Assembly (NCBI RefSeq): GCF_019599465.1
Contig: NZ_RKLR01000006.1
Coordinates: 62,001 to 126,000 of the forward strand
Reading direction: 5' to 3'
Source: Haloarcula rubra
GTDB lineage: Archaea; Halobacteriota; Halobacteria; Halobacteriales; Haloarculaceae
DNA: 64,000 nucleotides
The notes under the pieces: generated by a model
Told to the model about the DNA's origin: nothing
Databases searched by the model: none
Seen by the model: only the letters and a program-made list of their open reading frames with translations
In this document: piece after piece, positions 3,455 to 28,283 of the stretch
Layout of the letters: the number at the start of each line of letters is the position of its first letter
Numbering within the stretch: position 1 is the stretch's first letter
Made by a program: the position numbers and the translations under genes

Positions 3455-5071
3455 CTAGAACTCGTTGCCGAGGATCTTGAGGTTGTCACACCCGTGGTCT
3501 TTGATGCCGCCACGGAGCGTGTTGTGCTTCAGGTAGACGTTGGCGCTGTCGGGGTAGAGACAGTACGCTTCGTAGTCGCCGTAGGAGTTCGCGTAGATCT
3601 CCTCGACGTGGGTTCCATCGCCGAGGTCGATGATGGGGTACTCGCTGGCACGGTAGTCGCCCTTGTAAATCGTGACGTCGTCGCCCGTGTTCACGATGGC
3701 GCGTCGGTCCGACCCACCGGACTGGTCGACGTTGACCGCACCGAAGCGGACGTTGTCTCGGTCACAGCGAATCGCGGCCTTCGCGGTCTCGTCGCCGACG
3801 TTGCCGACGAAGTCGACGTACTCCAGTAGCACCTGTCCGGTGTTGTCGCCGTCGTTGATCTCGATGCCGAACCCGCCGGGCGTGTCCATCTCGATGCGTG
3901 AGCCGACGAGCGTGACCTCACCACAGTCGGGTGAGGTGACGACGGCGTTGGTCACTTCGTCGCCGGCGACGTAGATGTCCGCGTTCTCTATCCAGGCCGA
4001 CGTACAGGTCCCCATGACCGAGATACCGAAGCTATTCGGGAGGGGAGCGGTGTTCCGGACCGTGACGTTCTCGACGCGGATGTCGCCGCCCTTCTCGAGT
4101 CGGATGGCGCGGTGAGACTCGTCCCGGGGTCGGTTCTGGTCGACGACCACGGTGGCGCCGTCGATACTGCTCCCGTCACCGCCGATGCGGAGCGACGCGG
4201 CGTTGCTGTTCGAGTAGTGGCCGCCCTCGACGGTGATAGTGCCCGAGCCACCGGACGCGTAGAGACCGTTGTCGGGAAACGCGCCGACGACGCAGTTCCT
4301 GAAGGTGAGCGATCCGCTGTTCGAGTTGGCGAGCAGACCCGTCGGGCCACGCCAGATGTTGCCGGCGTTCGGCGTCTCGTCCTCCCACGCGCCGCCGTCT
4401 GGAACCTCGAAGCCCTCGACGAGGCCGCTCCCGTTGGGGTCAGAGACAGCGAACCGGCCCGGGCCCCACGTCCCGCTGTCGTGTTCCCCGTGGACCGTGA
4501 TGTTCCGGACCTCGAGACCGTCGTCGACGACGGTCTCGATGACGCGGATGCCCGTATCCGGGGCGGTCTGGTCGACGTCGAAGCCGTCGAAGACGAGTCG
4601 GTTGCCGGGGCTGTAGCCGACACCGAGACGGAACAGGCGGTACTGTGGGCCATCGAAGTCGTAGTAGTCGGCCGGAACGAGGGTGGCGTCGTTCCCGACG
4701 AGACCGAACTTCTCGAAGCCGGTGAACCGCACCTGTTCGTCCATGTAGTACTCGCCCGGCGGGAAGACCAGCAGCGTGTCGTCGCCGCGGTACTTCCTGA
4801 TGACGTCGACGACGGATTCGTTGCCGGTGTTGTCGGCGCCCGCTTCGACGACGTCGATTACCGTCCCGAACTCCTCGTAGTACTCGTCGAGGCGGTCCGA
4901 CGTCGTCTCCGCACTCGCACGTCCGGTCATGGAAGCGAGGGTTCCTCCAATCGCAGTTGTCGCGATACCTTGAAGCACCTTTCGTCGGCCCAGCATCACA
5001 CCGTCTGTCGCGTCGTGGTCCGACCGCGTCTGTTCGCCAGCATCGATTTCAGAGGGAGAGTCATTTGGCAC
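3455..5071 (-). CDS. Tat-secreted right-handed beta-helix protein
   Basis: A 538-residue protein with a long polar leader and a Tat signal (GRRKVLQGIATTAIGG, residues ~28-44; likely cut after GRASA). The segment VIDVVEAGADNTGNESV followed by LLVFPPGEYYMDEQ is the usual start of a pectate-lyase-3-type beta-helix ('G A D ... G ... D...', 'FPPGxY'). The rest consists of short strands such as ITVEGGHYSNSNAASLRIGG. It shares architecture, but little sequence, with the two beta-helix genes it converges on. It is probably an extracellular protein acting on or binding surface glycans. No enzymatic residues can be assigned safely. Confidence 0.85.
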   Translation of the reverse strand: MPNDSPSEIDAGEQTRSDHDATDGVMLGRRKVLQGIATTAIGGTLASMTGRASAETTSDRLDEYYEEFGTVIDVVEAGADNTGNESVVDVIRKYRGDDTLLVFPPGEYYMDEQVRFTGFEKFGLVGNDATLVPADYYDFDGPQYRLFRLGVGYSPGNRLVFDGFDVDQTAPDTGIRVIETVVDDGLEVRNITVHGEHDSGTWGPGRFAVSDPNGSGLVEGFEVPDGGAWEDETPNAGNIWRGPTGLLANSNSGSLTFRNCVVGAFPDNGLYASGGSGTITVEGGHYSNSNAASLRIGGDGSSIDGATVVVDQNRPRDESHRAIRLEKGGDIRVENVTVRNTAPLPNSFGISVMGTCTSAWIENADIYVAGDEVTNAVVTSPDCGEVTLVGSRIEMDTPGGFGIEINDGDNTGQVLLEYVDFVGNVGDETAKAAIRCDRDNVRFGAVNVDQSGGSDRRAIVNTGDDVTIYKGDYRASEYPIIDLGDGTHVEEIYANSYGDYEAYCLYPDSANVYLKHNTLRGGIKDHGCDNLKILGNEF

Positions 5072-18785: not shown

Positions 18786-20405
18786 ATGACGGACAAATTC
18801 GAACTATCGAGGCGGAAAGTGCTCGGCGGACTGGGGACCATCGGGGTCGCCTCCGCGGGCGCTGGACTCGGCACGACGGCATTCTTCAGTGACACAGAAT
18901 CGTTCGACGGCAACCAACTGACCGCTGGTTCACTAGACCTGAAAGTCGACTGGGAAGAGCACTACTCCGACTGGTCCGAAGACGAGAGCAAGAATCTGAA
19001 CTACGACGTCAAGATGTCCGCGCCCTCGGACACGAGCAACTGGGTTGGGCTTCCCAATCCGAGCGATCCGCTCATCTGGGTGCACAGGGACGACCTCGGG
19101 ACGTTCATGGACAACACGTCAATCGAGGCGTACCCGGACGACGACGACGACGGTATCCAGGACGATCTCGAACAATACGACGCGTGTGATGACTTCGCGG
19201 ACACGCCAGAGGACCTCGATCCCAGGATTCAGAACGCGCTCCGAACAAAGAACGACGACACGCTGATGGAGGACAAGGACGGTAACGTGGTCCCGGCACC
19301 ACTCGTCAACCTCCACGACGTGAAGCCGGGTGACTTCGGCGAATTGACGCTCAGCTTCCACCTGTGTGACAACCCGGGATACGTCTGGCTCAACGGCGAA
19401 CTCGTCAGTGCGAGCGAAAACGGACACACTGAGCCTGAGCGAAAGGACCCGGACGAGATGTCAGGAACGGTGGAACTCCTCGACGCGATCCAGACGCAAC
19501 TCTGGTACGACGAGGACGGTGACAACGTGTTCGAGCCCGGTCGCCAGGGACAGCCCATCTGTGTGCAACTCGTCCTCGACGCGTCCGGGTCGATGGCTGG
19601 GGATCGGAACACCCAGGCCAAGAACGCCGCGAACCTTCTGGCGGACGAAATACTCGATGCGAATCCGGATAACAGAGTCGGAGTGACCTACTTCGGCGAG
19701 AACAACCAAAATGCGCGGGTCGTCCAGACGGTCACCGACGACGGAACTGCTGTCGAGAACGCCATCGATGGCCTTCCGGCCGAAGACGGCACCCCAATCG
19801 GAGACGGGATTGAGGCGGCCGACGAGGACCTGGCGAACTGCCCGTCGGATGCCTTCACCACCCAGATCGTCATCACCGACGGACAGCACAACCTAGGCAC
19901 CGACCCATCTGAGGCTGCTAACGACGTCACCGGGTCCGACAGCGACGACTACACCGACGAAATCTTCGCGGTCGGAACTGGCGGTGCCACCGAGAGCTCG
20001 CTGGCAGAGTTCGCCCGTCCGGCCGACCAGGGACACATCTTCTTCACTGGCGAAGCGAACGAACTGGTCGATCTCCTCGCACAGATCTCGCAGATACTCG
20101 TCGGCGAGCAAGAGTTCTTCCGAGGTACGCTCCGCGAACTGCTGGAAGCCGTCGGCACGGACTTCGGGATACCTCTCGACGGGAATCGCTCGACTGCGTA
20201 CGACGAGGTCGATAGCAACAAGTTACCGAACAGCGGCGACGACCCGAACCGCGAGTGCTTCGTGAACTCCACGAACAACTTCATCGGTCTCTCGTGGTGG
20301 CTGCCGGTCGACCACGCAAACGAGATCCAGACGGACACCGTGAGCTTCGATCTCGGGTTCTACACCGAGCAGTGCCGCCACAACAGCGGCGCTGGGCAGG
20401 CCTAG
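18786..20405 (+). CDS. TasA/CalY-like secreted protein with inserted von Willebrand A domain
   Basis: A 539-residue protein. The signal region combines a Tat-like SRRKVLGGLG (RR 9-10) with the SipW-type end GTTAFFSDTE (30-38). The body shows HYSDW, an Asp-rich loop (DDDDDGIQDD, 118-127), VKPGDFGELTLSFHL and CDNPGYVWLNGELV. A vWA domain occupies about 258-440, with MIDAS residues DASGS (265-269), Thr336 in GTPIGDG, and Asp365 in TDGQ. After it the family sequence resumes (GTLRELL) to the shared end WWLPVDHANEIQTDTVSFDL with paired Cys. It is probably an exported fibre or matrix protein in which the vWA domain provides metal-dependent adhesion. Confidence 0.85.
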   Translation: MTDKFELSRRKVLGGLGTIGVASAGAGLGTTAFFSDTESFDGNQLTAGSLDLKVDWEEHYSDWSEDESKNLNYDVKMSAPSDTSNWVGLPNPSDPLIWVHRDDLGTFMDNTSIEAYPDDDDDGIQDDLEQYDACDDFADTPEDLDPRIQNALRTKNDDTLMEDKDGNVVPAPLVNLHDVKPGDFGELTLSFHLCDNPGYVWLNGELVSASENGHTEPERKDPDEMSGTVELLDAIQTQLWYDEDGDNVFEPGRQGQPICVQLVLDASGSMAGDRNTQAKNAANLLADEILDANPDNRVGVTYFGENNQNARVVQTVTDDGTAVENAIDGLPAEDGTPIGDGIEAADEDLANCPSDAFTTQIVITDGQHNLGTDPSEAANDVTGSDSDDYTDEIFAVGTGGATESSLAEFARPADQGHIFFTGEANELVDLLAQISQILVGEQEFFRGTLRELLEAVGTDFGIPLDGNRSTAYDEVDSNKLPNSGDDPNRECFVNSTNNFIGLSWWLPVDHANEIQTDTVSFDLGFYTEQCRHNSGAGQA

Positions 20406-20440: not shown

Positions 20441-20483
20441 GACCCACGCTGGCACCACGGCGGTTCGACTCCGCCGGTGGGTC
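20441..20483 (+). ncRNA. tRNA-like minihelix, copy 1
   Basis: GACCCAC (20441-20447) pairs fully with GTGGGTC (20477-20483) as a 7-bp acceptor-like stem. Between them lie 10 bases (GCTGGCACCA) and a T-arm GGCGG-TTCGACT-CCGCC, extended by one more C-G pair. The loop fits the tRNA T-loop consensus TTCRANN. There is no D or anticodon arm. It starts 35 bases after the stop of the vWA gene. Confidence 0.7.
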
Positions 20484-20506
20484 TTCCCCCGAACGGGGAG
20501 AGGGAG
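20484..20506 (+). promoter_or_regulatory. Hairpin with ribosome-binding sequence after minihelix 1
   Basis: TCCCC-CGAAC-GGGGA can fold into a short hairpin. Its 3' arm and the following GAGGGAG form the likely ribosome-binding site for the ATG at 20510, so folding could hide the site. The same arrangement occurs at copy 2, and a variant at copy 3. Confidence 0.45.
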
Positions 20507-20509
20507 AAA

Positions 20510-22114
20510 ATGGCAGACAGATTCGAACTTTCGAGGCGGAAAGTGCTCGGCGGACTGGGAACCATCGGGGTCGCCTCCGCGGGCGCTGGACTCGGCACGA
20601 CGGCGTTCTTCAGTGACACGGAAACGTTCGAGAACAACAAACTGCAGGCCGGTAGTCTGGACATGAAGGCGGCCTATTCGGCCCACTACTCCGACTGGTC
20701 GGAGGACGAGGACGACGGCCTCGACGGCGAGGTGCAGATGACCGACCCGAGTGGTGGTCCAGTAGCAGACGGTCGGGTCGGCCTCCCGTCGAACGTCGCT
20801 TCGATGATCTCGGTGCAGGACGCCGACGACGCGAAACAGTTCCTCGCGAACACGCAGACGGGAGCTGACGGCGACGCGTCGTGTTCCGGTGGAACAGACG
20901 CCGATGACCTCGACAAGCCGGTCATCGAACTCGGCGACGTCAAACCGGGCGACTTCGGCGAGGTGACGTTCTCGTTCGCGCTGTGTGACAACCCCGGCTA
21001 CGTCTGGATGAACGGCGAACTCGTCGACGCGAGCGAGAACGGTGTCACCGAATCGGAAGCTGACGACGACGACGAGGACCAGAAAGAGGATGGAAGCCTC
21101 AAGGATGCAAACGATTCGGAGAAAACCGTCGAACTCCTCGACGAGGTCAAAGCCGCCGTCTGGCTCGACGACGGGAACAACTACCAGAACGGTGGCGAGC
21201 AGCCGCTTATCGTCGACTCGCTCAGGAACGTTCTCAACGAACTGGAGACGAGTGGATCCGACAGAGGAATCCGCATCGACGGGCGGAACGTGGCAGCGAG
21301 CGATATCGTCCCTACCGACTTCACGGCTCACGGCGTGAACCGGTTCGATTTCAGCACAGACGGAGACTACGACCTCGACTTCGAACTGACGAACGACCCG
21401 GCCGGTGGCAGCGGCAAGGTCGCCCACGGTACGTCCGGTGGTGCGTCGACCACGGACTACGCTACCACCTCAGTCCCGGTCGGGGAGACCATCGGGAACA
21501 TCAAGGGCGGGTCGCTGACCTACGAGTACTACGGGGGCGCGGACAACACCAACTCCGCACCGGACGAGGTGTGGCTGCTCATCGAGGAGACGGACGGGAC
21601 CCAACACGTCGTCTACCACACCTCCAACGACGGTGACATCGACGCCCAGACGTGGAAGACTCGCAACGTCCATCTGGAGGTCGACGGAGACCCGGACCCC
21701 GAGGACAACCCCGGCTACAACTGGTTCGAAGTGACCTCAGGAGGAAACACCAAAATTCCGGACGACGATGGGAACGACGGCAACAGCGTCGCCGATCTCG
21801 GGGCCAAATACGACGACGACGCCACGGTGGTAGCGATGGCCGTTGGTCTCGGCAACATCGGGAGCGCGTCGGTCTCCGACGTCTATTACCGAAATCCCTC
21901 GCTGAACGGGACCTCGCTCGGCCACTTCCCGACGGCGTGTTTCCGAGGGTCCGCGGACGATCACGACCACGTCCACAGCGCCGTCTTCGCGTGGTGGCTG
22001 CCTGTCGACCACGCCAACGAGATTCAGACGGACAGCGTCGAGTTCGACCTCGGGTTCTACACCGAGCAGTGCCGCCACAACGACGGCACGGGGATGGCTC
22101 CCGAGAACGCCTGA
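20510..22114 (+). CDS. TasA/CalY-like secreted protein with a large beta-rich insert
   Basis: A 534-residue protein; I start at the ATG at 20510 because MADRFELSRRKVLGG matches the paralogues, while the open frame upstream is not protein-like. Same frame as the first paralogue: signal, HYSDW, VKPGDFGEVTFSFALCDNPG, TVELLDEVKAAVW, DSLRNVLNEL, and the end FAWWLPVDHANEIQTDSV. At the place where the first paralogue holds the vWA domain, about 210 other residues are inserted (~262-480), containing GNIKGGSLTYEYYGG and VSDVYYRNPSLNG, which look like a jelly-roll or LamG-like domain. Probably an exported matrix or fibre subunit. Confidence 0.8.
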   Translation: MADRFELSRRKVLGGLGTIGVASAGAGLGTTAFFSDTETFENNKLQAGSLDMKAAYSAHYSDWSEDEDDGLDGEVQMTDPSGGPVADGRVGLPSNVASMISVQDADDAKQFLANTQTGADGDASCSGGTDADDLDKPVIELGDVKPGDFGEVTFSFALCDNPGYVWMNGELVDASENGVTESEADDDDEDQKEDGSLKDANDSEKTVELLDEVKAAVWLDDGNNYQNGGEQPLIVDSLRNVLNELETSGSDRGIRIDGRNVAASDIVPTDFTAHGVNRFDFSTDGDYDLDFELTNDPAGGSGKVAHGTSGGASTTDYATTSVPVGETIGNIKGGSLTYEYYGGADNTNSAPDEVWLLIEETDGTQHVVYHTSNDGDIDAQTWKTRNVHLEVDGDPDPEDNPGYNWFEVTSGGNTKIPDDDGNDGNSVADLGAKYDDDATVVAMAVGLGNIGSASVSDVYYRNPSLNGTSLGHFPTACFRGSADDHDHVHSAVFAWWLPVDHANEIQTDSVEFDLGFYTEQCRHNDGTGMAPENA

Positions 22115-22137
22115 CCCTGCATCGTTCCGCGACCATC

Positions 22138-22180
22138 GGCCCACGCTGGCACCACGGCGGTTCGACTCCGCCGGTGGGTC
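22138..22180 (+). ncRNA. tRNA-like minihelix, copy 2
   Basis: GGCCCAC (22138-22144) pairs with GTGGGTC (22174-22180). The second pair is G-T instead of A-T, so pairing is kept despite the base change. The 10-base spacer and the T-arm are identical to copy 1. It starts 23 bases after the preceding stop and is followed by a CCCC/GGGG hairpin and a purine-rich ribosome-binding region before the ATG at 22212. Confidence 0.7.
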
Positions 22181-22211
22181 TTCCCCCAAACGGGGAGAGG
22201 AGAGGCTGAAA

Positions 22212-23768
22212 ATGACAGACAAATTCGAACTATCGAGGCGGAAAGTGCTCGGCGGACTGGGGACCATCGGGGTCGCCTCCGCGGGCGCTGGACTCGGCAC
22301 GACGGCGTTCTTCAGTGACACGGAATCGTTCGACGGCAACAAGCTGACCGCTGGTTCACTGGACCTCAAGATGGACTGGCAGGAGCACTACTCCGACTGG
22401 TCCAGCGACGAGGAGCAGTACGCGGGGATGGCGTCGAGTGAGTCGACCGCGGACTACGTCCTCCCCGGTGGGCCGGCCGGCGAGTCCATCCTGCTGACCA
22501 TCTCCGACGAGGACGAGTTCATGGCGGCGACGTCCATCGAAGCATTTCCCGACAAGGACAACGACGCGATCAACGACTACGACGCGACGCTGGAAGCACT
22601 CACGGACACCGACGCGAGTGACCCGGGTCCGGGAGACATCTGTAACATCGGTGCCGACACGCCGGAAGACCTCGACCCGACCACAGGGTACCGCACGAAG
22701 AACGCGGACACCTACGACCAAGAGAGTGGCACGTACAAGCCGCTCATCTCGATCGACGACGTGAAACCGGGCGACTTCGGCGAGGTGACGTTCAGCGCAC
22801 ACCTCTGTGGAAACCCGGGGTATCTCTGGATGTTCGCGAGCAACGTCGACGGGAGTGAGAACGGGTACACCGAACCTGAGATCAAGGACGACGACGAGTC
22901 CGGTGACGCTGACGGCGACGGTGTCGACGACACCGTCGAACTCCTCGACAAGATCCAGGCGCGGGCCTGGTACGACGGTGCCGGACACATCGGAGGCGAT
23001 TCCGGAAACAACCTCAAAGACGCCGACGAGCCGACGATCGTCGGGCCCGACTCGCTACGGAACGTCCTCAGTGCACTCCAGCAAAACCCGGGCGTGCCAC
23101 TGAGCGCCGCGAACTTCACGAAGCCGCACTGTGGGGCCTCACAGGACGGGAGTGGCATCGACGGCTCCTCGACGTTCACCTGCGTGGGGTCCACCAGCGT
23201 CAATCCGGACTGTGAGAGCCAGGGCTACAAGGTCGGCGTGAAGTTCGACGAGAGCGAACTGCCGGACCAGGACGGGAACTACCACACGATCACCAAGACG
23301 GTCACCATCGACGGCACGGATTACGACTTCTCGGTGGAGGTGAAGGTGACCGCCGAGGATGACGGTCAGCCACAGAAACTGGTCTACCAGAATCTGGAAG
23401 TCAACGGGACCGAGGCCGGTGCCGGTCTGGTCATCGTCAAAGGCGGTCCGAACGCGAACCTTTGTACGCCCGACGACGGCCCCGCGTCGGGAAGTGGCTC
23501 CTACGACCTCCATCCCCCAATCAATCCGAACAACGGCAAACCGTACGCGATCAGTCACATCGACTTCTGTATCGCGAATGGCATGCAGCCCCCAGACGCT
23601 CCGCCGCGGACCTGTCTCGTCAACTCGACGACGGTCTACGTCGGCTTCGAGTGGTGGCTCCCCATCAACCACGGCAACGAGGTCCAGACTGACAGCGTGA
23701 GCTTCGACCTCGGCTTCTACACCGAGCAGTGCCGCCACAACGACGGCACCGGAATGCAACGACAGTAG
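22212..23768 (+). CDS. TasA/CalY-like secreted protein with a cysteine-rich insert
   Basis: A 518-residue protein. The first ~140 bases of the gene are nearly identical to the vWA paralogue. It shares MTDKFELSRRKVLGG, FFSDTE, HYSDW, the Asp-rich loop FPDKDNDAINDYD, VKPGDFGEVTFSAHLCGNPG, TVELLDKIQARAW, DSLRNVLSAL and the end FEWWLPINHGNEVQTDSV. Its insert (~300-470) at the common site includes PHCGASQDGSG, NPDCESQGYKVGVKF and a beta-rich stretch with several Cys. Probably an exported fibre or matrix subunit; the insert function is unknown. Confidence 0.8.
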   Translation: MTDKFELSRRKVLGGLGTIGVASAGAGLGTTAFFSDTESFDGNKLTAGSLDLKMDWQEHYSDWSSDEEQYAGMASSESTADYVLPGGPAGESILLTISDEDEFMAATSIEAFPDKDNDAINDYDATLEALTDTDASDPGPGDICNIGADTPEDLDPTTGYRTKNADTYDQESGTYKPLISIDDVKPGDFGEVTFSAHLCGNPGYLWMFASNVDGSENGYTEPEIKDDDESGDADGDGVDDTVELLDKIQARAWYDGAGHIGGDSGNNLKDADEPTIVGPDSLRNVLSALQQNPGVPLSAANFTKPHCGASQDGSGIDGSSTFTCVGSTSVNPDCESQGYKVGVKFDESELPDQDGNYHTITKTVTIDGTDYDFSVEVKVTAEDDGQPQKLVYQNLEVNGTEAGAGLVIVKGGPNANLCTPDDGPASGSGSYDLHPPINPNNGKPYAISHIDFCIANGMQPPDAPPRTCLVNSTTVYVGFEWWLPINHGNEVQTDSVSFDLGFYTEQCRHNDGTGMQRQ

Positions 23769-23794
23769 ACCAGTAGCATCGCTTCACAACTATC

Positions 23795-23840
23795 GACCCA
23801 CGCGGGCGCGCGACAGGCGGTTCGACTCCGCCGGTGGGTC
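23795..23840 (+). ncRNA. tRNA-like minihelix, copy 3
   Basis: GACCCAC (23795-23801) pairs with GTGGGTC (23834-23840), with the same T-arm GGCGG-TTCGACT-CCGCC (23816-23832). The spacer differs from copies 1 and 2 (14 bases, GCGGGCGCGCGACA), so the two stems are conserved while the linker is not. A shorter hairpin TCCC-TGGAGA-GGGA follows, 4 bases before the ATG at 23860. Confidence 0.7.
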
Positions 23841-23859
23841 TTCCCTGGAGAGGGACCCC

Positions 23860-25029
23860 ATGACCAAACACAACCTCGAACTGTCACGGCGGAAGGTGCT
23901 CGCCGGCCTCGGCGGTGTCGGACTCGCATCGACCGGTGCCGGACTGGGAACGACGGCGTTCTTCAGCGACACGGAGACGTTCACGAACAGTCAACTCGTC
24001 GCCGGCGAACTGGATATGCTGGTCGACTGGGAGGAACACTACGCCGACTGGTCCGACGACGAGAACGACGACCGGACAGACGACTTCGGAGGCGACGAGA
24101 CCGACCTCGACGGGGACGGAGATACCGACGACGATGGCACCGGGAACTTCGACGTCTTGATGACAGACGGCGATCCGACGACCGTTCCCGACGGCTATAC
24201 GGGACTCCCCACTCCGATGGAGCCACTCATCGCGGTGCCCGACGAGTTCGTCGACGACTTCATGATGAACACGGCTATCGAAGCCTTCCCCGACGAGGAC
24301 GACGACGGGATTCAGGATACGATATACACCCGTAACCAACTCAGCAAAATGACGTCCTTGTCGCCCGAGGAAATAGAGGAGGAATTCCGGTCACAGTTCG
24401 CGAACGTGCCTGACGAACTGGATTCGGACCTACGAACCGAGTCCTCACGGGGGGATCCGCTCGTGTATCTGGAAGACGTCAAGCCGGGTGACTTTGGTGA
24501 GGTGACGTTCAGCCTCCACCTGTTCAACAACCCAGGGTACATCTGGCTCGACGCGGAGATACTCGAGAACGCCGACAACGGCATGACTGAACCCGAAAAG
24601 AAAGACGACGACGAGTCGGGGACGAACGCGAACGGGAACAACCCGGGCGAACTCCTCGACGCCATCCACACGCTGGTCTGGCACGACGACGGCGACAACG
24701 TCCTCGAACAGAGCGAGATCGTCTACGCGCCACACGACGTCGACAGCAGCACGTCCATCACGCTCGAAGGCGACGAGCGTATCGTCGCCCGCGGAACCCT
24801 CCGTGACGTCCTCGAAAGCGCGGCCGACGGCGGCATCCCGCTCGACGCCGACACGCGGACGAGCGAGCGTGACTGTTACCCGAACTCGACGACGCGACAC
24901 GTCTGCTTTGCGTGGTGGCTGCCCGTCGACCACGCCAACGAACTCCAGACCGACTCCGTCGGGTTCGATCTCGGGTTCTACACCGAGCAGTGCCGTCACA
25001 ACGACGGGTCTCGACTGCCGGCCGAATGA
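23860..25029 (+). CDS. TasA/CalY-like secreted protein, minimal form without insert
   Basis: A 389-residue protein showing the family frame without a large insert: ELSRRKVLAGLGGVG (RR 10-11), GTTAFFSDTETF, HYADWSDDE, a long Asp-rich stretch (~65-100), FPDEDDDGIQD, VKPGDFGEVTFSLHLFNNPG, GELLDAIHTLVW, GTLRDVLESA and the end FAWWLPVDHANELQTDSV with FYTEQCRHN. The Cys found in the paralogues at CDNPG is replaced by Phe-Asn. Acidic loops suggest calcium binding. It is probably the basic building unit of the family. Confidence 0.8.
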   Translation: MTKHNLELSRRKVLAGLGGVGLASTGAGLGTTAFFSDTETFTNSQLVAGELDMLVDWEEHYADWSDDENDDRTDDFGGDETDLDGDGDTDDDGTGNFDVLMTDGDPTTVPDGYTGLPTPMEPLIAVPDEFVDDFMMNTAIEAFPDEDDDGIQDTIYTRNQLSKMTSLSPEEIEEEFRSQFANVPDELDSDLRTESSRGDPLVYLEDVKPGDFGEVTFSLHLFNNPGYIWLDAEILENADNGMTEPEKKDDDESGTNANGNNPGELLDAIHTLVWHDDGDNVLEQSEIVYAPHDVDSSTSITLEGDERIVARGTLRDVLESAADGGIPLDADTRTSERDCYPNSTTRHVCFAWWLPVDHANELQTDSVGFDLGFYTEQCRHNDGSRLPAE

Positions 25030-27014: not shown

Positions 27015-27115
27015 TAGACAGAACGAAACGATATCGACGGCGACGCAGAACCGAGCAGCGAACGGCCATTGCGGAGCGTGCAATGGATGGAGGTGAGGCG
27101 CGTGTCGGGAGCTAA
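27011..27115 (+). other. 34-codon basic frame between two operon genes
   Basis: ATG at 27011 overlaps the preceding stop (ATGA) and encodes MIDRTKRYRRRRRTEQRTA... ending at 27115, inside the signal peptidase start region. It is very Arg-rich. It may only carry ribosomes to the next gene by coupling. Real peptide function is doubtful. Confidence 0.3.
27089..27096 (+). promoter_or_regulatory. Shine-Dalgarno GGAGGTGA fixing a GTG start
   Basis: GGAGGTGA lies 5 bases before GTG at 27102. It decides the start of the signal peptidase gene over the in-frame ATG codons at 27069 and 27087, which either precede or overlap it. Confidence 0.7.
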
Positions 27116-28283
27116 TCGGGTCGTCAAAATACTCGGGACACTCGCGTTAGTCGCAGTGGTCCTGCCCTTCGCGGTCGTCGGTGGCGCGAACGTCGTAGAC
27201 GGCTATTCGAGTCACGTTGTCGTCAGTGGGAGCATGGAACCGGCTATCGGAGTTGGAGACGTCGTCATCATCGACCACTCACCAGGTGAGATACGGCAGG
27301 GCGACGTCATCACGTACGGGAGCGGTGACGATAGGCTCCCCACGACCCACCGTGTCGTCGACATCAGGTCACAAGAGGGGCAGGAGACGTACGTGACCAA
27401 AGGCGACGCGAACGAGGACCGCGACCCCACGCCGGTGCAACGACAGCAGGTCGTCGGGGAAGTGTTCCTGACGGTTCCGTATATCGGCCACGTCCTCACC
27501 TTCGCCGACACGACCTACGGGTTCGCCGTACTGGTGGTCGTTCCCATCGGTCTCCTGCTGTTGAACGAGGCGTGGGTCCTGTTCAGGTCGGCGCGCGACT
27601 CCGATGGCGACAAGCCGGACGATAGTGAGGAAGGAGACAGTGACAACGGTGCCAGTCCAGCCAGCGCCGGCGATGCCGACGATGGTGGTGAGACGATTAC
27701 CCTCACGGCGAAGGAAATCCAGCTTGCGCTCGTCCCGACGGCTGCTTTGACGGTGGTCAGCGCCTGGATCACCTACGACACGCGCTCAGGTGTCGCGGCC
27801 GCGATTACGACCGCAGCGGGAGTCAGCCTTCTGTTCGGCTTCGGGATGGTCGTCACCAGTAGCGGACCGACCGACGAGATTGAAACGGCTAGCCAGGACG
27901 AGTCCGACAGTCTCAACTTGGTCGGTGAGGGAGAGTCACCACTGGAGATCACGACACCTGTGACTGTCGACGACGAACGTCTCGTCCCCGTCGAATCGGT
28001 CGAGACAATCGTCGCATGCGCCGAGGACATGGAGCGTTGTCTCCTCTGGGACCCAGCAGAGAGCGAATGCTACCTTCCGAACGGCGACCATCTCTACCGT
28101 TGTCAGTCGGTGAACGAATCAGTCGCGGAGACGCTGTCGGGGCTCGCTCCCGAAGGTGAGGAAGCCGCTGCCTCAACGACCGGCGCGGACGGACAGTCGG
28201 ACGTGCCAGAGAACGGGTCGTCGATGCAGGACAACGCCGAGGCCGTCGAGTACCAGTTAGAGGAGGGGCCCGATGACACGTAA
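27102..28283 (+). CDS. Archaeal-type signal peptidase I (S26B) with C-terminal extension
   Basis: A 393-residue protein from the GTG at 27102. An N-terminal membrane span (~10-32) is followed by the catalytic region: SGSMEPAIGVGD with Ser44, TTHRVVDI with His83 (His in place of the bacterial Lys, as in archaeal/ER enzymes) and KGDANEDRDP with Asp102. A second span lies near 145-165. Unusually, about 200 more residues follow: an acidic linker, two more spans (~205-250) and a soluble tail with four Cys (VACAEDMERCLLW, SECYLPNGDHLYRC). Its place in the TasA-like cluster mirrors SipW with TasA in Bacillus, so it probably matures the cluster's own exported proteins. Confidence 0.85.
   Translation: MSGANRVVKILGTLALVAVVLPFAVVGGANVVDGYSSHVVVSGSMEPAIGVGDVVIIDHSPGEIRQGDVITYGSGDDRLPTTHRVVDIRSQEGQETYVTKGDANEDRDPTPVQRQQVVGEVFLTVPYIGHVLTFADTTYGFAVLVVVPIGLLLLNEAWVLFRSARDSDGDKPDDSEEGDSDNGASPASAGDADDGGETITLTAKEIQLALVPTAALTVVSAWITYDTRSGVAAAITTAAGVSLLFGFGMVVTSSGPTDEIETASQDESDSLNLVGEGESPLEITTPVTVDDERLVPVESVETIVACAEDMERCLLWDPAESECYLPNGDHLYRCQSVNESVAETLSGLAPEGEEAAASTTGADGQSDVPENGSSMQDNAEAVEYQLEEGPDDT

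Follow-up and report, generated by a model that had tools for sequence, protein, structure and literature searches.

Introduction

In Haloferax volcanii, the transfer RNA (tRNA)-like structure known as the t-element that precedes 5S ribosomal RNA (rRNA) is cut by tRNase Z, according to passages of PMC4326828, PMC7714728, PMC3296008 and PMC4946936 (citing Hoelzle 2008, 2012). Passages in the same four papers describe the release of CRISPR RNAs by t-elements in vivo, and a passage of PMC4326828 presents t-elements as substrates of both RNase P and tRNase Z. Here, we analyzed a 64,000-nucleotide (nt) stretch of Haloarcula rubra DNA (contig NZ_RKLR01000006.1 of assembly GCF_019599465.1; hereafter the window) in which three putative t-elements occupy the gaps between four tandem, co-directional genes for TasA-like paralogues. 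Like the H. volcanii 5S t-element, they combine an acceptor stem with a T-arm, have a TTCGANT loop and a GG in the spacer, and stand at a fixed distance from a structured RNA. Unlike it, they lie in protein-coding operons rather than an rRNA operon, they have the acceptor CCCAC/GTGGG in place of CCGAC/GTCGG, and the structure after them is a short hairpin where the 5S t-element has 5S helix I. Cleavage by tRNase Z is experimentally shown for the 5S t-element, whereas cleavage of the messenger RNA (mRNA) elements is predicted.

More distant parallels exist. In Escherichia coli, RNase P cleaves mRNAs between genes and fimbrial operons undergo stem-loop processing. Such intercistronic cutting can give unequal amounts of fimbrial subunits, as proposed here, but the nuclease and the recognition element are different and the systems are not homologous. 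Mitochondrial transcripts are punctuated by tRNAs, and tRNA-like structures lie at mRNA ends in plant mitochondria, with RNase P and RNase Z as the processing enzymes (reviewed in PMC10941002). In these cases too, a longer transcript is divided into mRNAs, or their ends are set, by tRNA or tRNA-like folds; however, the mitochondrial signals are real tRNAs or fuller tRNA-like structures, and the archaeal one is a minihelix without an anticodon arm.

Known sequence signals for archaeal mRNA processing are few. A tRNase Z signal at 5S rRNA was already known; what we add is the same kind of signal between fimbrial genes, in the form of a covarying RNA family that is widespread in one archaeal class, marks specific junctions in fimbrial operons and predicts cut sites to the nucleotide. 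These findings suggest that a tRNA-processing enzyme also cuts haloarchaeal filament mRNAs between genes. If true, archaeal tRNase Z would gain a messenger-RNA role, and the family offers a direct test of how one operon yields unequal amounts of filament subunits.

Minihelices in the gaps between TasA-like genes

The four genes are separated by gaps of 104, 97 and 91 nt. An earlier sequence-only reading of this DNA had placed a tRNA-like minihelix in each gap, and we found all three where it had put them. The elements were scored with two covariance models, R2, built from 16 natural gap elements of mRNA loci aligned by MAFFT alone, and R3, built from 17 5S t-elements only. R2 matches below about 41 bits were not trusted, and the expectation values (E) of the models are rough. 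The elements and the hairpins that follow them are listed here.

20441..20483, + strand: t-element copy 1; 69.2 bits with R2, rank 1 in the window with R3
20484..20500, + strand: hairpin TTCCCC/GGGGAG, starting immediately after the discriminator; predicted tRNase Z cut 20483/20484, by analogy with 5S
22138..22180, + strand: t-element copy 2 (GGCCCAC/GTGGGTC); 66.8 bits with R2, rank 2 with R3
22181..22197, + strand: hairpin TTCCCC/GGGGAG; predicted cut 22180/22181
23795..23840, + strand: t-element copy 3, whose spacer is longer and differs in sequence; 58.1 bits with R2, rank 3 with R3
23842..23855, + strand: hairpin TCCCT/AGGGA, both strands differing from those of copies 1 and 2; predicted cut 23840/23841

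Copy 1 consists of G-1, the acceptor 5' strand ACCCAC (20442-20447), the spacer GCTGGCACCA, a T-stem CGGCGG/CCGCCG closed by the loop TTCGACT, the acceptor 3' strand GTGGGT and the discriminator C at 20483. The T-arm GGCGG-TTCGACT-CCGCC had been read to the letter, and most elements extend its stem to 6 base pairs (bp) with an extra C-G; in copy 3 this sixth pair is an A-G mismatch or an A bulge. As also reported, the base change in copy 2 keeps pairing as G-T, and the spacer of copy 3 differs in both length and sequence. The second hairpin, right after the discriminator, was absent from that account.

The elements resemble the T-arm and acceptor half of a tRNA (RF00005) but have no D-stem and no anticodon arm, and neither ARAGORN nor Rfam gave a match at the window elements. 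We rejected a real tRNA, which would have the complete cloverleaf, and likewise any known Rfam family. By-eye comparison revealed no obvious parent tRNA within the genome, and a pattern scan for the element in viral contigs gave none. When the whole H. rubra genome was searched with R2, only the three window copies scored strongly; the next match (35.7 bits) lies inside the Kae1-Bud32 coding sequence and, being within that gene, was dismissed as a chance match.

Covariation points to a conserved RNA fold

In the MAFFT alignment of the 16 copies, 96.9% of pairs are standard and 6 of 13 pairs have changes on both sides, with a covariation score of 0.295 compared to 0.121 for shuffled alignments and at most 0.089 for slid partners. 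Because these copies had been chosen partly for pairing, we performed a second test on 61 elements selected by motif only. The second acceptor pair was paired in 75% of them, compared to 62% with permuted partners (4 of 2000 permutations), and their T-stems displayed G-C/A-T and C-G/G-C exchanges. By contrast, the outermost acceptor pair did not outperform permutation (54% vs 52% with permuted partners). In the full set of 123 elements, both-sided changes were present in 10 of the 13 pairs. Acceptors elsewhere include GCCTGT/GCAGGC in L010 (Halapricum), TCCCAC/GTGGGA in L020, L021 and L019, ACTCAC/GTGAGT in L018 and CCCCGT/GCGGGG in L014. On this comparative evidence, the minihelix is a conserved RNA fold and not a local duplication, as had been proposed.

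The 7-bp stem GACCCAC/GTGGGTC of the sequence-only reading was exact in its letters, but the seventh pair did not hold: since the outermost pair fails the permutation test, covariation argues for a stack of 6 acceptor and 6 T-stem pairs. The resulting 12 bp is the length of the acceptor/T stack of tRNA (7+5).

Copies 1 and 2 share 97% identity and have homologous genes on either side, and arrays of paralogues are present in many genomes. Both observations would suit a repeat that acts at the DNA level, promoting recombination or gene conversion among paralogues without any RNA function. However, compensatory changes preserve pairing, and the spacer varies while the stems stay. Furthermore, the elements keep to the coding strand, where equal frequency on both strands would be expected of such a repeat, and they are akin to an rRNA processing signal. 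We give this explanation almost no weight.

Relationship to the 5S rRNA processing signal

The sequence-only reading had mentioned the tRNA-like 5S processing element in passing; covariance-model searches in both directions now link it to the mRNA elements. R2, trained on mRNA gaps with no 5S sequence, matched 5S upstream regions in genomes G048, G036, G055 and G059 (4 times), with exactly 1 nt between the end of each match and the Rfam 5S start. Most of 30 5S upstream regions carry a t-element whose acceptor ends 2 nt before the Rfam 5S boundary, and several of those without one seem to have been read from the wrong side of the gene. In H. rubra itself, the 5S gene is preceded by CCGAG-TTGGAGTA-TCACGG-TTCGACT-CCGTGA-CTCGG-CG. 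Most 5S elements have A x C at the first acceptor pair.

For the reciprocal search with R3, the spacers of the 17 5S elements were filled out with N or cut to 10 nt, such that spacer columns carry no weight; the covariation score of this alignment was 0.609 compared to 0.243 when shuffled. In the window, copies 1 and 2 were the two best matches (E 1.9e-7 and 2.5e-7) and copy 3 was third, through its T-arm only (17.5 bits, E 0.07; next match 16.7 bits). In the whole genome, the 5S element, a member of the training set, came first, followed by copies 1 and 2 (E 1.4e-5 and 1.9e-5) and then by a match with E 0.04. As judged by the covariance models run both ways, the mRNA elements and the 5S t-elements are one RNA family.

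Two weaker R3 matches in the H. rubra genome, C32:191044-191074 and C31:620070-620117 (L204 and L205; 26.1 and 24.9 bits), could be degenerate t-elements or chance. In genome G059 (C1:2677155-2677501), tandem 5S rRNA genes each have their own t-element upstream.

Family anatomy and the 3' boundary

Across the family, the elements have the hallmarks of a t-element: an acceptor and T-arm minihelix with a TTCGANT loop, no anticodon arm, a covarying stack of 12-13 bp, and structured RNA directly after the discriminator, at approximately the offset at which 5S starts. The T-loop is TTCGACT or TTCGATT in 118 of 123 elements, or 120 if TTCGAAT is included. A spacer of 7-16 nt in most copies takes the place of the D and anticodon arms. 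The earlier description of 10-14 "free bases" was right that the arms are absent, but the spacer sequence is not free: 102 of 108 elements have a GG within spacer positions 2-7, compared to a mean of 55 and a maximum of 67 in shuffled spacers. These residues may act as G18G19 and dock on the T-loop, giving an elbow like that of tRNA.

CCA, an anti-determinant for tRNase Z, follows the discriminator (positions 74-76) in none of the 123 elements, and U occupies position 74 in 101 of them. A hairpin starts 0-5 nt past the discriminator N73 in 101 of 121 tails (offset 0 in 58), compared to 24% of shuffled tails, and its sequence is variable, with 54 different stems.

These features bear on which enzyme would do the cutting. 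RNase P could be the main nuclease, with a cut on the 5' side after which the minihelix stays attached to the downstream mRNA; a passage of PMC4326828 names both enzymes as acting on t-elements. However, the 5' side is poorly fixed, with an open terminal pair and a G-1 that varies among elements, while the 3' side is fixed by the U at position 74 and the hairpin that starts there. We consider RNase P very unlikely in this role. It might still trim the upstream side in addition to tRNase Z cleavage, but the case for RNase P is weaker than that for tRNase Z, given that the first acceptor pair is frequently unpaired and, in 5S elements, mostly A x C.

Distribution and genomic context

When the search was extended beyond the window with a covariance model, as the sequence-only reading had advised, at least 104 of the 391 genomes from Halobacteria had an element (R2, E<=1e-4). 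At E<=0.01 the tally was 179 of 391, part of which are 5S elements, and we therefore rely on the smaller figure. In a sample of 197 genomes from the phylum, all 16 match-bearing genomes were Halobacteria. A protein search identified 22 loci, 17 of them haloarchaeal, and the haloarchaeal gaps carry the same fold in different letters.

We analyzed gene context in 60 regions from match-bearing genomes together with 17 loci from the protein search (131 matches; regions were chosen for having matches). Among 123 elements, 65 have TasA/SipW-like genes on both sides, 13 have "GAFTSV" genes on both sides, and most others are beside one TasA/SipW-like or GAFTSV gene. Almost always, the element sits between co-directional surface-protein genes and on the coding strand. 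In Halorubrum ezzemoulense, an element is present at L171:6935-6977. The one GAFTSV protein tested matched NCBIfam TafE and TafA, both below their cut-offs; these are families of the haloarchaeal Tat-fimbria ("tafi"), which a passage of PMC12687288 describes, citing Galeva 2025. Measured from the discriminator, the start codon is a median of 23 nt away, with an interquartile range of 20-25 nt (n=101).

This regular spacing would also be expected if the fold were bound rather than cut, with a protein or the ribosome using it as an element of the 5' untranslated region that controls how the downstream gene is translated or how stable its message is. Such a role would fit two further observations: the repeat containing the element runs on into the next open reading frame (ORF), as though the element duplicates along with the 5' end of the downstream gene, and in L016 and L137 an element lies in the leader of a first gene. 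Against this role, the covariance models cross-recognize the element and the 5S signal, in which this architecture serves as a cut site. Very few copies precede first genes, almost all being intergenic. We regard binding without cutting as unlikely.

In four loci (L086, L133, L134 and L136), elements adjoin unrelated genes. Given these neighbors and the first-gene leaders, the uses seen go beyond the punctuation of fimbrial operons, though this is the main one. The t-elements at L086:3507-3549, 4196-4239 and 4712-4752 (G195 contig C4, about 26.5 kb) and at L207:402-442 have good scores with the 5S-only model; two sit 25 nt before small uncharacterized ORFs, in a region of 55-57% GC beside genes for RlaP and a TbsP-like regulator. 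This region appears to be an operon of non-surface proteins that uses the t-element signal. The elements at L133:2969-3013, L134:2898-2942 and L136:2775-2816 are beside genes for a Tat-signal protein, an S-layer-like protein and a glycosyltransferase. Separately, first-gene leaders of Halorubrum in L020, L021 and L023 contain two conserved hairpins (ATCCCCCCTTCCGCTAAGGGAGGGG and CTGGC..GCCAG) that are distinct from the t-element.

A proposed model for punctuation of filament operons

We propose that each gap carries a t-element that imitates the acceptor and T-arm half of a tRNA (6+6 bp, a UUCGAYU loop and GG as G18G19). The four genes would be transcribed together: the gaps contain no AT-rich, TATA-like 8-mers and the region upstream of gene 1 holds a promoter-like AT-rich box, TTATCTAA, which fits a single transcript. 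tRNase Z would recognize the minihelix and cut after the discriminator, as before 5S rRNA. The site is assigned by analogy with haloarchaeal 5S rRNA, which begins UUAAGGCGG, that is, at position 74. The upstream product of cleavage would be an mRNA ending in the minihelix, or one shortened by RNase P; the downstream product would be an mRNA with a hairpin at its very 5' end. Genes separated in this manner would be represented by mRNAs of independent stability, and the purpose of the arrangement may be to set the amounts, or stoichiometry, of the subunits. By analogy with 5S processing, tRNase Z cleavage after positions 20483, 22180 and 23840 is probable in our view and would divide the polycistronic transcript into separate messages, each downstream one capped by a hairpin.

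Several observations count against this model. Single-sequence folding energies of the window elements are unremarkable (z -0.1 to -0.9); the evidence for the fold is comparative. The terminal acceptor pair is open in 31 of 119 elements. Some gaps in homologous clusters are free of the element (L013:4380, L014:5983, L020:3778 and L025), indicating that it is not obligatory, and in the first-gene leaders of L016 and L137 there is nothing upstream to separate. L020 and L021 share one junction with the element and one without; because the elements are junction-specific in this way, it is plausible that they set subunit amounts.

We also considered a transcription terminator or attenuator, in which GC-rich stems stop RNA polymerase. 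Each gap does contain two tandem GC-rich hairpins. However, the hairpins are not followed by a T-run, translation of the next gene starts about 20 nt further on, the conserved T-loop and GG are unnecessary for termination, and the gaps offer no promoter-like AT box to restart transcription. On these grounds, termination was rejected as highly improbable.

Returning to cleavage by tRNase Z, we favor, with less assurance than for the three window sites, a broader interpretation. Halobacteria may use a general tRNA-like punctuation, in which t-elements of the 5S type are cut by tRNase Z to split fimbrial or filament operons and a few others, hairpins protect the new mRNA 5' ends and the tRNA machinery sets the subunit ratio.

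Genes of the window cluster

The cluster genes and a nearby signal peptidase gene are as follows.

18786..20405, + strand: gene 1, SipW-type signal and VWA domain; upstream region without a t-element and with the AT-rich TTATCTAA
20510..22114, + strand: gene 2, SipW-dependent-type signal (TIGR04088)
22212..23768, + strand: gene 3, SipW-dependent-type signal
23860..25029, + strand: gene 4, SipW-dependent-type signal; predicted fold nearest TasA
27069..28283, + strand: SipW/archaeal type I signal peptidase; NF046067 at 2.4e-32 (below its cut-off), TIGR02228 above its cut-off

All four cluster proteins match the SipW-type signal peptide family TIGR04088 above its cut-off; 30 of 30 aligned relatives match it at E<=0.01. 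The SipW-type peptidase encoded near the TasA-like genes is of the dedicated kind and probably serves the cluster. An AlphaFold model of the gene 4 product (mean predicted local distance difference test score, pLDDT, 72) had the TasA fibre 8aur as its top PDB match (Foldseek probability 0.98, E 2.7e-3), with VIA Z scores of 7.4, 7.3 and 6.9 for three TasA structures and 5.0 for the next row. Judged by this model, "TasA-like" is a fair name for the cluster proteins, with Z below 8 falling short of proof of the fold. Finally, the VWA domain of gene 1 is inserted in a SipW-signal protein, as it is in some members of other clusters, and this first paralogue is a possible adhesive tip.

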